Source: Clostridiales bacterium (lineage in GTDB: Bacteria; Bacillota; Clostridia; Saccharofermentanales; Saccharofermentanaceae). From it: a DNA stretch of 35,467 nt. The notes below the pieces were generated by a model. It did not search any database. It saw only the letters and a program-made list of their open reading frames with translations, and was not told the origin of the DNA. A program made the translations under genes and the position numbers. The DNA lies in contig JAFZWA010000024.1 of the NCBI GenBank assembly GCA_017617525.1, positions 1-35,467 on the forward strand, in the 5' to 3' direction. The stretch's first letter is position 1. Each line of letters starts with the position of its first letter. Below, piece by piece: positions 31,151 to 33,662 of this stretch.

Positions 31151-31377
31151 TGTTCGATTTTTCGAAAAAAGATCAAACAAAATGGAAAACAGAGGGGAAA
31201 ATACAGTTTTTCGCTCTGATTCATTGGCAATTTACAAGCCCTCGATACGAAGAACGTCCAACGGAGATTCCCCATCGGACGTTTTTGCTGTCTCAACCTC
31301 TCATATTACAAACGAATCCACGTGAAAACCACTTATCCCGCCTCTATTGGTAGTTTTGTTCGATTTTTCGAAAAAAG
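31151..31377 (+). repeat. Pair of 21-base direct repeats
   Basis: The same 21 bases, centred on the palindrome TTTTTCGAAAAA, occur at 31151-31171 and 31357-31377, in the same orientation and 206 bases apart. The second copy lies just after the stop side of the zinc-ribbon gene at 31400. Confidence 0.8.
31253..31286 (+). terminator. Terminator-like hairpin in the gene-free region
   Basis: AACGTCC (31253-31259) pairs with GGACGTT (31277-31283) around 17 bases and runs into five Ts (31282-31286) on the plus strand. No plus-strand gene precedes it, so it could end a small RNA or be chance. Confidence 0.45.
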
Positions 31378-31399: not shown

Positions 31400-32197
31400 T
31401 TATCCGAACACATTCGGATTACACAAAACGGCTATCGCCGTTAAATCTGCGGCAAGTTCCGCTTGTTTCGCAGCGCGATATGTCATCTCCATCTGAACTT
31501 CCATGTATGATCTATGGTGGTCCTCAAGGATACAATTGATCGCTTCTTTGATAGTATCCGCACGACCGGCTTCAATCGTCGATTTGATAGAATAAAGGAT
31601 CTTGGGATTTGAAAACTCATATCCCACAAGACATGGTCCAAAAGCCTGATAGTGATTATTCAGTTCGATAGATATCTCATTGATTCGTTGAGCAATACGG
31701 TTAACCTCGCTTTTTCGATCCATACGTTTCTTGGTCACCAGCGCCATGATAAGAATCCCGACTACCATCCAAAAGCCTCCAACAGCTGCAGTGGAACTCT
31801 TCGATAATGAAGTCAGGCCAATAAAGAAAAGAATTCCTCCGATCCAGTAGGGTAACGTTTTCAGATACCCATACTTTAACCATTTCGAAATCCATCCCAT
31901 ATTAGGATCCGGTGTCGGGCAGAGTTCTTCGATCCCGTTCTGAAGAATTTCATACTCATCGTAAATAGCTGATTTCTCACTAAAATATCTGAGCATCCGA
32001 TTCACTTCAGACAGACTGTCGGATCGGGTATGAATCACATCTTGTGAAACACCGGAGCTGATGTTCCGCATGGCCGATGAATCAATCACGGAAGGTTGGG
32101 CGATTTGCATATTTGAAGCGTCCTGACGTGTCCCGCATCCCGGACAAAACTGCATCACATCTTTAAGTTCCATACCACAGTGCCAACAAAAAGCCAT
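31400..32197 (-). CDS. Zinc-ribbon membrane protein with shared leader
   Basis: Protein of 265 residues, family not recognised. A zinc ribbon is formed by Cys4, Cys7, Cys18 and Cys21 (FCWHCG, FCPGCG). A polar linker, a helical segment (about 60-95), two membrane segments (115-131 and 138-155) and a cytoplasmic helical C-terminal half (EVNRIAQRINEISIELNNH, then EMTYRAAKQAELAADLTAIA) follow. The start has a GGAGG site. The two-hairpin leader element at 32230-32282 lies 32 bases upstream, and a second copy stands before the membrane-protein gene at 33091-33576, implying common control. Function is unknown. Confidence 0.8.
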   Translation of the reverse strand: MAFCWHCGMELKDVMQFCPGCGTRQDASNMQIAQPSVIDSSAMRNISSGVSQDVIHTRSDSLSEVNRMLRYFSEKSAIYDEYEILQNGIEELCPTPDPNMGWISKWLKYGYLKTLPYWIGGILFFIGLTSLSKSSTAAVGGFWMVVGILIMALVTKKRMDRKSEVNRIAQRINEISIELNNHYQAFGPCLVGYEFSNPKILYSIKSTIEAGRADTIKEAINCILEDHHRSYMEVQMEMTYRAAKQAELAADLTAIAVLCNPNVFG

Positions 32198-32229: not shown

Positions 32230-32282
32230 GTTAGGATAGTCTTGTAAAGACTATCCTAACCTGTTAATCGTAGGATAACAGG
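32230..32282 (-). promoter_or_regulatory. Two-hairpin leader element, copy 1
   Basis: A perfect 14-bp stem (32230-32243 with 32247-32260, 3-base loop) is preceded on the minus strand by a 6-7-bp hairpin CTGTTA/TAACAG (32261-32282). It ends 32 bases before the start codon of the gene at 31400-32197. No T-run follows. In this copy TATCCTA of the first hairpin can also pair with TAGGATA of the second, giving a mutually exclusive fold. See copy 2 at 33611-33662. Confidence 0.75.
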
Positions 32283-32316
32283 CGCTTCATCTTTATGAGA
32301 ATTTTCAAAAAAGTAG

Positions 32317-32345
32317 TTTACAAGACTACCGTTCCATGATATTAT
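32317..32345 (+). promoter_or_regulatory. Promoter of the 38-residue and DUF1413-like genes
   Basis: TTTACA (32317-32322), a 17-base spacer and TATTAT (32340-32345), with TG one base before the -10. A short inverted repeat GTAGT/ACTAC overlaps the -35. The start would be near 32352. Confidence 0.7.
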
Positions 32346-32353
32346 GATGTCAC

Positions 32354-32376
32354 GAGTTAGTTTTAGCAACTAACTC
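32354..32376 (+). promoter_or_regulatory. Perfect inverted repeat at the transcription start
   Basis: GAGTTAGTT (32354-32362) and AACTAACTC (32368-32376) form a perfect 9-bp pair with a 5-base centre, right after the predicted start. It could be an operator or a 5' stabilising hairpin. The half site GAGTTAG also occurs at the edge of leader copy 1 (32228-32234). Confidence 0.65.
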
Positions 32377-32416
32377 AACATAGACAAAAAACTACGAAAG
32401 GAGGCACAACAACTTT

Positions 32417-32533
32417 ATGATGGATGACTATAAAGAACTTGGCTATGAAAGCCCTTATGACATTTTATATGAACTGTTTGGAGTTGAGAATGAAGATGAT
32501 CTTGAAGATGCGCTCGACTCTTGGAATAACTGA
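32417..32533 (+). CDS. Small acidic protein of 38 residues
   Basis: ATG to TGA encodes a 38-residue acidic peptide (MMDDYKELGYESPYDILY..., then EDDLEDALDSWNN). AAAGGAGG lies about 11 bases before the first ATG, 8 before the second if that is used. It is the first gene after a good promoter, and its amphipathic helix-like acidic composition is unlike random sequence. No family recognised. It is followed after 53 bases by the DUF1413-like gene on the same transcript. Confidence 0.6.
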   Translation: MMDDYKELGYESPYDILYELFGVENEDDLEDALDSWNN

Positions 32534-32586
32534 TTATTTATGTGGATATATAACAAGATCAAACTAAAGAAAGGAAGATTATACTT

Positions 32587-32988
32587 ATGAAGAAGATTAT
32601 GATCACGATTAAAGATGAGACTTTCGATATACTCGACGCCAAGGCCGCGGAAAAGAAGATGACGGCACCCGTTCTTGGTTCGGAAATCATCGAAACTGTA
32701 TGCAGCACCTTCACACCGACAAACTCTTCCACACCGTGCACGCAGCAGATCATTAATGATACGATCGATGCAATCAGAGATTATGTAAAAACACTGGCAC
32801 CCGGAGATTCTTTCGTCCTTTGCAACGTGCAGAGCTACACTGACTTACCTCACGGCCACAAGATAACTGTAGGCAAAGTTTGGAATCAGCTTATCAGCTC
32901 CGGCAAAGAAGCAAATGTACAAAGAGCTATGAACCGTAACGGTAACTACAAGAATCGCGGTTCAGCAGCCGTATACACTCGCATCTGA
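32587..32988 (+). CDS. DUF1413-like protein with ribbon-helix-helix-like start
   Basis: Protein of 133 residues. The N-terminal 45 residues (KKIMITIKDETFDILDAKAAEKKMT) look like a short strand plus helices of the ribbon-helix-helix kind. The C-terminal half (LAPGDSFVLCNV, LPHGHKITVGKVWNQLI, then an Asn/Arg-rich turn and AAVYTRI) resembles DUF1413, a domain of unknown function often found on plasmids and other mobile DNA; this assignment is tentative. The start has GAAAGGAAG about 9 bases upstream. If the N-terminus binds DNA, the inverted repeats near 32354 would be natural targets. It ends at the strong terminator at 33018. Confidence 0.75.
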   Translation: MKKIMITIKDETFDILDAKAAEKKMTAPVLGSEIIETVCSTFTPTNSSTPCTQQIINDTIDAIRDYVKTLAPGDSFVLCNVQSYTDLPHGHKITVGKVWNQLISSGKEANVQRAMNRNGNYKNRGSAAVYTRI

Positions 32989-33017
32989 ATTTACTTACCC
33001 CAATTGTCCAATTAAAT

Positions 33018-33054
33018 GAACCCCCGGAGGTAACTTCCGGGGGTTCTTTTTTTC
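33018..33054 (+). terminator. Terminator after the DUF1413-like gene
   Basis: GAACCCCCGGA pairs with TCCGGGGGTTC and is followed by seven Ts. Very strong on the plus strand, with a weaker AT-rich tail on the minus strand for the convergent gene. Confidence 0.93.
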
Positions 33055-33090
33055 AAAAGGTGGCCAATTCATCGCCTTTTTCTAAACCAA

Positions 33091-33576
33091 TCATTTTGGT
33101 GGATTGCATTCATTCCATCTTATTTCTTGGAGTTCTTCAAGTTCTTCCTGATCAATTTTATACTGCTTCTTTGTCCGAAGATAACCAATAAAGTTGGCAA
33201 GCCAGAGAAACGGAGCAAACACAGCCTTGAAAATGAAGTTCAATATCATGTTGCTGATCGGGAAATCATATTCGAATAATGCATCCTGCACCTGACTCTT
33301 TACCGAGCCTTCGCTTTTCTTTGCACCGATACTCAAAATAGCTCCACCTATCGCCCACCATATCATTACCTCAAAAATGGTATTCAAGTACCCTCCTCTG
33401 ATTCTAAAGGAAAATAGTTGATAGCTTCTCAAATTGATAAAAGCCAGACGCACGATTCCCAGAGCGATAAACATTGCACTGATAATCAGTTGGATTTGCC
33501 TGTTTCTTATCCATCTGCGTTCAATTTCCACTCTATTCGCCACTTCATTAAGCCTACTATGGAAATATGGGTCCAT
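33091..33576 (-). CDS. Small membrane protein with shared leader
   Basis: Protein of 161 residues, family not recognised. It has a basic amphipathic N-terminus (RVEIERRWIRNRQ) and three predicted membrane segments (about 27-46, 63-84 and 110-132), ending in a charged coiled-coil-like tail (KIDQEELEELQEIRW). A GTG start 7 codons upstream is possible, but AAAGGGG spaced 13 bases before the ATG supports the start given. The two-hairpin leader copy 2 lies 34 bases upstream. Base composition is AT-richer than the housekeeping genes, as for the neighbouring genes of this locus. Confidence 0.78.
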   Translation of the reverse strand: MDPYFHSRLNEVANRVEIERRWIRNRQIQLIISAMFIALGIVRLAFINLRSYQLFSFRIRGGYLNTIFEVMIWWAIGGAILSIGAKKSEGSVKSQVQDALFEYDFPISNMILNFIFKAVFAPFLWLANFIGYLRTKKQYKIDQEELEELQEIRWNECNPPK

Positions 33577-33610
33577 ACGAGAATAATCCCCTTTCACTCA
33601 ATCAGAGAGT

Positions 33611-33662
33611 GTTAGGAGGGGCTTATCAAGCCCCTCCTAACCTGTTAATCGTAGAATAACAG
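33611..33662 (-). promoter_or_regulatory. Two-hairpin leader element, copy 2
   Basis: A perfect 14-bp stem (33611-33624 with 33628-33641, 3-base loop) and the hairpin CTGTTA/TAACAG (33642-33662) repeat the plan of copy 1. The ends of the long stem are identical to copy 1 (GTTAGGA, CTT), but the middle differs (GGGG instead of TAGT) with matching changes on the other arm. The segment CCTGTTAATCGTAG between and within the stems is conserved. It ends 34 bases before the start at 33576. Confidence 0.75.

Follow-up and report, generated by a model that had tools for sequence, protein, structure and literature searches.

The window analysed here is a stretch of 35,467 nucleotides (nt) from a Clostridiales bacterium of the family Saccharofermentanaceae (assembly GCA_017617525.1, contig JAFZWA010000024.1), and on its minus strand lie two protein-coding genes, each preceded by one copy of a 52-nt unit that consists of a short palindrome and a longer hairpin. 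The gene behind copy 1 encodes a zinc-ribbon protein of 265 amino acids (aa) with a predicted membrane segment (Pfam Zn_Ribbon_1, E 4.3e-8, above the cut-off); its ATG at 32197 is preceded by GGAGG and lies 32 nt past the unit. The gene behind copy 2 encodes a 161-aa protein with a hydrophobic N-terminal part and no Pfam family above the cut-off; its ATG at 33576 lies 34 nt past the unit, and a longer frame is possible from GTG 33597. Both distances agree with those in an initial annotation of the window, in which the two copies were proposed to be leader RNAs of a small regulon of membrane proteins. The features of the two copies are as follows.

32230..32281, minus strand: copy 1, whole unit, 52 nt
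32261..32281, minus strand: palindrome 1 of copy 1, CTGTTATCCTACGATTAACAG (from the sequence and the family consensus)
32280-32279 and 32277-32272, minus strand: candidate extended -10 element of copy 1, TG and hexamer TATCCT (from the sequence and the family consensus)
32265, minus strand: A, predicted transcription start of copy 1 (inferred)
32230..32260, minus strand: hairpin 2 of copy 1, perfect stem of 14 base pairs (bp) and 3-nt loop, covarying in the family
31400..32197, minus strand: gene behind copy 1, 265-aa zinc-ribbon protein with predicted membrane segment
33611..33662, minus strand: copy 2, whole unit, 52 nt
33642..33662, minus strand: palindrome 1 of copy 2, CTGTTATTCTACGATTAACAG (from the sequence and the family consensus)
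33661-33660 and 33658-33653, minus strand: candidate extended -10 element of copy 2, TG and hexamer TATTCT (from the sequence and the family consensus)
33646, minus strand: A, predicted transcription start of copy 2 (inferred)
33611..33641, minus strand: hairpin 2 of copy 2, perfect 14-bp stem, 3-nt loop
33091..33576, minus strand: gene behind copy 2, 161-aa protein with hydrophobic N-terminal part

Read 5' to 3' on the minus strand, both units begin with CTGTTA-ty-CTACG-AT-TAACAG, which runs directly into a 31-nt hairpin (14 perfect pairs, 3-nt loop), and they are 83% identical, ungapped, over their 52 nt apiece. The shared plan with its perfect 14-bp stem and three-base loop had been described correctly, as had the four central pairs of hairpin 2 that differ between the copies with full compensation (TAGT/ACTA in copy 1 versus GGGG/CCCC in copy 2). 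The boundaries of copy 2 also stand, whereas copy 1 ends at 32281 and not at 32282; the 21-nt block, described as conserved, has a single difference at its position 8; the triloops differ as well, and on the minus strand it is the short palindrome that comes first. In folding calculations all four stretches (two copies on two strands) were better than all 200 of their dinucleotide shuffles, with z between -5.3 and -5.8. Every predicted fold of the window copies contains the long hairpin. The short one is not part of the best fold obtained with the longer minus-strand stretch of copy 1. Elsewhere in the genome, a third copy (G000:C62:77638-77689) lies 83 nt ahead of a small lipoprotein gene.

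A family of covarying units

The window copies belong to a family of about 100 units in two related genera of Clostridia. The window's own genome is counted in all genome numbers given here. With at most three mismatches allowed, a 28-nt pattern has 30 places in 11 of the 23 genomes of the genus and none for its reversed control. The covariance-model search that had been proposed as a check found further copies ahead of genes, with stems that covary in other genomes: a model built on 16 copies has matches in 19 of the 23 genus genomes (E 0.01), and a second model, built on 40 copies, has matches in 47 of 115 family genomes, representing two of five genera (E 0.001), and in 41 of 188 order genomes, representing two of 30 genera (E 0.0001). 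Palindrome 1 alone, as an exact pattern with positions 4 and 18 (n4 and n18) free, occurs at 100 places in 41 of the 115 family genomes, and its reversed control again at none. Among contigs of named genomes, 24 stretches matched in a scan; their titles name Clostridia or Clostridiales assemblies or, for two of them, Mageeibacillus sp., and many come from ruminant forestomach or gut. Opposite-strand self-matches and weaker matches (e.g., L115, L116, L119-L122, L129) were left out of set A5.

The view that no described RNA family is involved was borne out as far as Rfam 15 goes: no family reached the gathering threshold anywhere in the window, and in nine of the 24 contig loci nothing did so over the units, the sole match being a tRNA elsewhere. 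Twelve weak matches all stayed under the gathering score, and ten of them lie over a hairpin at 33014-33050. A near-match search of a plasmid collection gave no match, viral contigs held no place for one narrower pattern of the unit, and no account of the unit was found in the literature, as judged from titles and the openings of abstracts.

The family plan is a near-invariant 21-nt palindrome, CTGnTA-nn-CTACG-nn-TAnCAG, followed by a hairpin of about 31 nt. The gap between the two is 0-1 nt in 70 of 83 copies, and hairpin 2 is 29-32 nt long in 61 of the 83. Palindrome 1 is nearly fixed in sequence, with an almost invariant CTACG loop. The stem of hairpin 2 is almost free in sequence with its pairing kept, and most of the covariation lies there: its middle pairs take all four Watson-Crick forms, and at the apex UU/AA is commoner than other pairs. 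Both-sided changes affect 8 of 21 pairs in the 16-copy set, 15 of 21 (130 cells) in the 40-copy set and 17 of 21 (336 cells) in 56 distinct rows of the second genus outside the model. In these last rows 93.3% of cells are paired, a figure to be read knowing that alignment to the covariance model favours the model's own structure; when the structure is slid, 30-39% of cells pair. The second-genus covariation exceeded all 500 shuffles on four of five measures, and the fifth, the number of further pair types, was reached by 66 of the 500. Stem pairs kept through both-sided changes, which mark covarying structured cis-regulatory RNAs, are thus present in the unit. G-U pairs are rare, with 18 G-U and 18 A-C among the core cells of both genera together; the ratio of G-U to A-C differs between the genera, 3:13 for the first and 15:5 for the second, and in terminator-like hairpins of the same loci it is 46:20, 46:16 and 37:19 for three stem lengths, which are overlapping sets.

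A switch through an alternative pairing (TATCCTA/TAGGATA) had been suggested for copy 1. This pairing does exist in the window, where copy 1 can form all 7 of the 7 pairs and copy 2 can form 6, but it is not a feature of the family: between positions 5-11 and 24-30 a mean of 3.21 of 7 bases pair in 92 distinct copies, versus 3.30 with partners swapped, with all seven pairing in three copies and at least six in ten. Many copies have a conserved pyrimidine-rich stretch 4-8 nt past hairpin 2, which reads TYYTG in one of the genera and resembles TTCTTA in the other. Pairing of this stretch with the right arm of palindrome 1 does not covary: the best pairing averages 4.51 of 6, and swapped partners give 4.46 and a shuffled downstream part 4.20. 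Among the palindromes looked at, those of L229, L122, L036 and L009 have no intact hairpin 2, and that of L233 has a shorter hairpin instead.

Seven of the fetched loci (L019, L027, L028, L192 and L231, and also L017 and L196) hold tandem arrays of the unit, whose period equals palindrome 1 plus hairpin 2 exactly. The period is 52 bp in six arrays and 51 bp in the one whose hairpin 2 has 30 nt. Neighbouring units, arranged head-to-tail, are identical in five of the seven, and at a contig end of one genome (G017) three units stand in a row. The ends of the arrays in L028, L192 and L231 share no bases with the ends of the unit, and simple slippage between short repeats therefore does not explain the precision of the arrays. 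This exact multiplication is a puzzle that can be tested.

Placement ahead of envelope genes

The units have a fixed orientation to genes. A gene start was accepted when an ATG followed a Shine-Dalgarno-like stretch and its frame either reached 100 aa or was still open at the end of the locus. Such a start lies on the same strand 12-100 nt downstream in 79 of 107 copies with enough flank, a count that includes near-identical copies, and on the opposite side in 1 of 107. Among non-redundant copies the numbers are 68 and 1 of 93, and random orientation to genes, named in the initial annotation as a refuting outcome, does not apply. Copies with N or with short flanks were removed from the positional, hairpin-length, promoter-score, upstream-offset and direct-repeat counts and from the comparison of sequences past hairpin 2; copies with redundant flanks were removed from the upstream-offset and direct-repeat counts, from that comparison and from the non-redundant positional count. 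The 118 matches lead to 106 distinct downstream frames, with seven lacking an open reading frame (ORF) and five being repeats. The distance from unit to start codon has a median of 35 nt (quartiles 30 and 56, range -1 to 165), and because of this short distance hairpin 2 is very probably transcribed with the gene. Accessibility of the Shine-Dalgarno stretch exceeds 0.5 in 33 of 83 copies, a figure that speaks neither for nor against masking of this stretch.

The covariation together with the fixed place and orientation means that the unit is a selected element and not a decayed repeat, as had been argued from the two window copies. Chance or decay could appeal to the small number of copies in the window, but the pattern and model searches, the covariation and the placement all stand against it, and we regard this explanation as refuted. 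An integron attC site or cassette array, for which two direct repeats 1381 bp apart around genes, and the tandem units, could be taken, was also rejected: the copies are tied to start codons in a fixed orientation, although no search for an integrase was made.

By simple rules for export and membrane calls, applied to unit genes of at least 100 aa and, as controls, to other genes of the same loci, whose starts were chosen by a somewhat different rule, 77 of 90 unit genes have a lipobox, an N-terminal hydrophobic stretch or an inner membrane segment, versus 161 of 397 controls. Lipoboxes (38 of 90 versus 56 of 397), N-terminal hydrophobic stretches (57 versus 98) and zinc-ribbon motifs (14 versus 15) are commoner among unit genes, and inner membrane segments alone are not enriched (22 of 90 versus 78 of 397, p 0.31). 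Of nine unit-linked proteins searched against Pfam, those with a family above the cut-off are LRR and DUF4214 proteins, a solute-binding protein and an FtsX-like permease; two of the nine have zinc ribbons below the cut-off and two have no family. The unit thus probably controls an envelope regulon of lipoproteins, secreted proteins and membrane proteins. The regulon of membrane proteins that had been proposed holds in this sense, but it is wider than thought, with lipoproteins, secreted LRR proteins, DUF4214 proteins, a family of solute-binding lipoproteins, an FtsX-like permease and zinc-ribbon proteins. For little-studied rumen and gut Clostridia this offers a handle on about 100 envelope genes, many of unknown function, under one control unit. 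One group of related secreted proteins, each with a unit of its own, has an INETNFPD-like motif close to the start; its genes lie in G058 (L192, L231, L234, L236) and G064 (L232, L233), and hairpin 2 varies with compensation between some of them.

Promoter, leader RNA or DNA structure

The short distance from unit to start codon leaves two places for the promoter, over the unit or upstream of it. Palindrome 1 resembles a sigma-A extended -10 promoter, TGn followed by a TATAAT-like hexamer. Among the model-aligned rows TGnTAnnnT is found in 92 of 98 (60 of 66 distinct), and the hexamer is within two mismatches of TATAAT in 93 and within one in 35 of the 98; these counts describe one conserved sequence and not 98 independent matches. 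Within positions 2-10 the variable sites are chiefly 4, 7 and 8, which are those left free in TGnTAnnnT. By a crude promoter score, the 120 nt upstream of the unit alone exceed the 90th percentile of shuffles in 13 of 112 cases, which is the chance level. With the palindrome included, 47 of 112 do so, and the best -10 lies inside the palindrome in 76 of the 112; the figure for ordinary genes of the same loci, over a slightly different stretch, is 26 of 111. Neither TATAAT with up to one mismatch nor TTGACA rises beyond shuffles at any upstream offset in 101 non-redundant copies. The upstream-offset and direct-repeat counts and the list of variable sites were anchored on the CTA at positions 9-11, which fixes those letters; the count over 98 rows was made without this anchor.

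Part of the family also has direct repeats just upstream. TGTDAH-N5-TGTDAH has 13 matches ahead of 51 copies of the second genus (shuffled mean 0.04) and five ahead of 51 copies of the first (shuffled mean 0.01), and eight of the 13 begin exactly at -22 of the unit; relative to a start at A17 they would lie at about -38 to -22. The window's genome encodes 17 OmpR-type DNA-binding domains.

From the -10-like palindrome, the chance-level upstream scores and the fixed-offset direct repeats we infer, tentatively and as a matter we consider nearly evenly balanced, that the unit is a self-contained promoter plus leader, with palindrome 1 as core promoter and hairpin 2 at the 5' end of the mRNA. The left arm and centre of palindrome 1 would form the extended -10 element (TGnTAnnCT), and in part of the family a response regulator of the OmpR/WalR type may bind the TGTnAA repeats in the -35 position. 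RNA polymerase would start at the near-invariant A17, after T16, to give an mRNA that begins with AnCAG and continues into hairpin 2. The stem of about 14 bp so close to the 5' end would most likely shield mRNAs of exported and membrane proteins from decay, or else may be read by a protein. The self-complementarity of palindrome 1 goes beyond what promoter function would need, and either a dimeric regulator bound over the start site or a hairpin formed in read-through transcripts would have to be supposed as well.

Several observations weigh against this promoter-plus-leader account. The n4/n18 pair is Watson-Crick in 87 of 100 places (shuffled mean 40.0) and in 33 of 39 distinct palindrome 1 sequences (shuffled mean 15.1), with a weaker pairing tendency for 7/15 (50 of 100, versus 36.5) and 8/14 (31 of 100, versus 17.4); such covariation speaks against a promoter since a promoter alone does not require self-pairing. 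Position 9, which would be -8, is C in all 98 model-aligned rows, and C is unusual at this place of a sigma-A -10. With two mismatches allowed, TATAAT peaks at offset -9 (23 of 101 copies, shuffled maximum 17); the peak falls where the sequence is A-rich (AAAA at -8 or -7), and we take it to belong to this run and to TGTAAAA, yet it could be a -10 of its own, and it counts against the account because transcripts from it would begin close to the left arm. A good TGATATACT stands 9-17 nt ahead of several first-genus lipoprotein copies. Most copies lack the direct repeats, as do the window copies at the offsets concerned, and the strict WalR consensus, TGTWAH-N5-TGTWAH (PMC4168254), has only eight matches in 51 second-genus and two in 51 first-genus copies. 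Finally, RppH of B. subtilis is described in PMC3997798 as requiring at least two unpaired 5' nucleotides, preferring at least three and needing G at the second place; the five unpaired nucleotides predicted here are long enough for RppH, and slowed decay through hairpin 2 may thus fail.

Alternatively, transcription may start upstream and both hairpins may be part of the mRNA, where a protein or ligand would read CUACG and UU-nnn-AA at a fixed spacing. This two-hairpin leader is a real possibility, although one to which we give less credence. It would account for the pairing of palindrome 1 that is kept through both-sided changes, for the near-invariant loop, and for a hairpin 2 whose apex is favoured and length nearly fixed with a free stem; the peak at -9 would supply the promoter, and the tandem copies resemble tandem RNA domains. 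However, promoter scores upstream of the unit are at chance, palindrome 1, unlike hairpin 2, has a stem of conserved sequence, repeats at -22 and -11 would then cover the -10 region, and hairpin 1 is lost from one of the best folds, as noted above. We therefore consider the fused promoter and 5' hairpin somewhat more likely than the two-hairpin RNA. The leader RNA first proposed is, accordingly, retained as a leader element, but its first hairpin may be a promoter instead of, or in addition to, an RNA structure; a transcription start inside the unit would come close to the last of the refuting outcomes named with that proposal, a start downstream of the element.

Two further explanations place the structure in DNA. 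According to one, the unit acts through cruciforms or single-strand hairpins and spreads or duplicates like a mobile or structure-templated promoter, as the arrays with a period of exactly one unit and mostly identical neighbours, the few G-U pairs, and lengths of 21, 31 and 52 bp and an upstream period of 11 bp, all near whole helical turns, would suggest. We consider it unlikely, since a fixed strand and distance to start codons need a role in expression, the G-U comparison is not decisive (the two genera disagree, and terminator-like hairpins give about 2:1 to 3:1), and the narrower pattern has no place in viral contigs. The other, which we regard as quite improbable, takes palindrome 1 as the operator of a family of dimeric regulators, whose paralogues would read the n4/n18 pairs, over an ordinary promoter, with hairpin 2 as a separate element. 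The 21-bp palindrome does span the predicted -16 to +5, and its base choices at n4/n18 are symmetric, in three variants, several of which occur within one genome in some cases (e.g., G000, G008, G108). But several co-evolving regulators per genome would be required, and most palindromes looked at are joined to hairpin 2 by a gap of 0-1 nt and so are not independent of it. A combination of ideas, in which a fixed 52-bp module of self-complementary core promoter and 5' hairpin is duplicated via hairpins in DNA and multiplies promoters head-to-tail before surface genes, seems doubtful to us.

The unit has partial counterparts in known systems. In the leaders of ompA, papA and aprE a stable stem-loop lies close to the 5' end, ahead of the ribosome-binding site, and envelope or exported genes are among these cases. 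The stem-loop near the predicted 5' end is the common feature; in the present case hairpin and core promoter make up one conserved 52-bp unit that is used regulon-wide and repeated in tandem, and stabilisation is putative. ANTAR dual-hairpin antiterminator RNAs and the put RNA of phage HK022 consist of two adjacent leader hairpins with free stems and conserved loops. The unit also has two adjacent hairpins and conserved loops, with a free stem in hairpin 2, and its loops do not seem to fit the ANTAR hexaloop. WalR/VicR (YycF) promoters resemble those units that have TGTnAA-N5-TGTnAA repeats with an 11-bp period ahead of envelope genes (PMC4168254). They differ in that only a minority of the present units have the repeats, and the candidate regulator would be one among the 17 OmpR-type domains. 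WalR promoters are not known to contain such a palindrome or hairpin. Candidate RNAs from comparative genomics are likewise covarying 5' elements before a set of genes in one clade (e.g., PMC2864571 and PMC6429828); in contrast to them, the unit contains a promoter-like core, and no Rfam family reaches threshold on it in the window or in the nine contig loci. If palindrome 1 is indeed a promoter, covariation of the kind ascribed to leader RNAs can stem in part from a palindromic promoter, which would call for caution in comparative RNA discovery; if the RNA explanation is true, the unit is an undescribed two-hairpin leader.

Other features of the window

Between the end of a plus-strand ORF at 32988 and the minus-strand gene that ends at 33091, the strong G+C-rich hairpin at 33014-33050 is followed by a T run and is likely an intrinsic terminator. 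Ahead of small plus-strand ORFs at about 32418-32988 there are two inverted repeats, one at 32354-32376 (gagttag...ctaactc) and one at about 32315-32330, tagtttacaagacta, which resembles the core of the hairpin of copy 1. Past the zinc-ribbon gene, the 21-nt direct repeat TGTTCGATTTTTCGAAAAAAG, which is partly palindromic, occurs in identical form at the intergenic positions 31151-31171 and 31357-31377.

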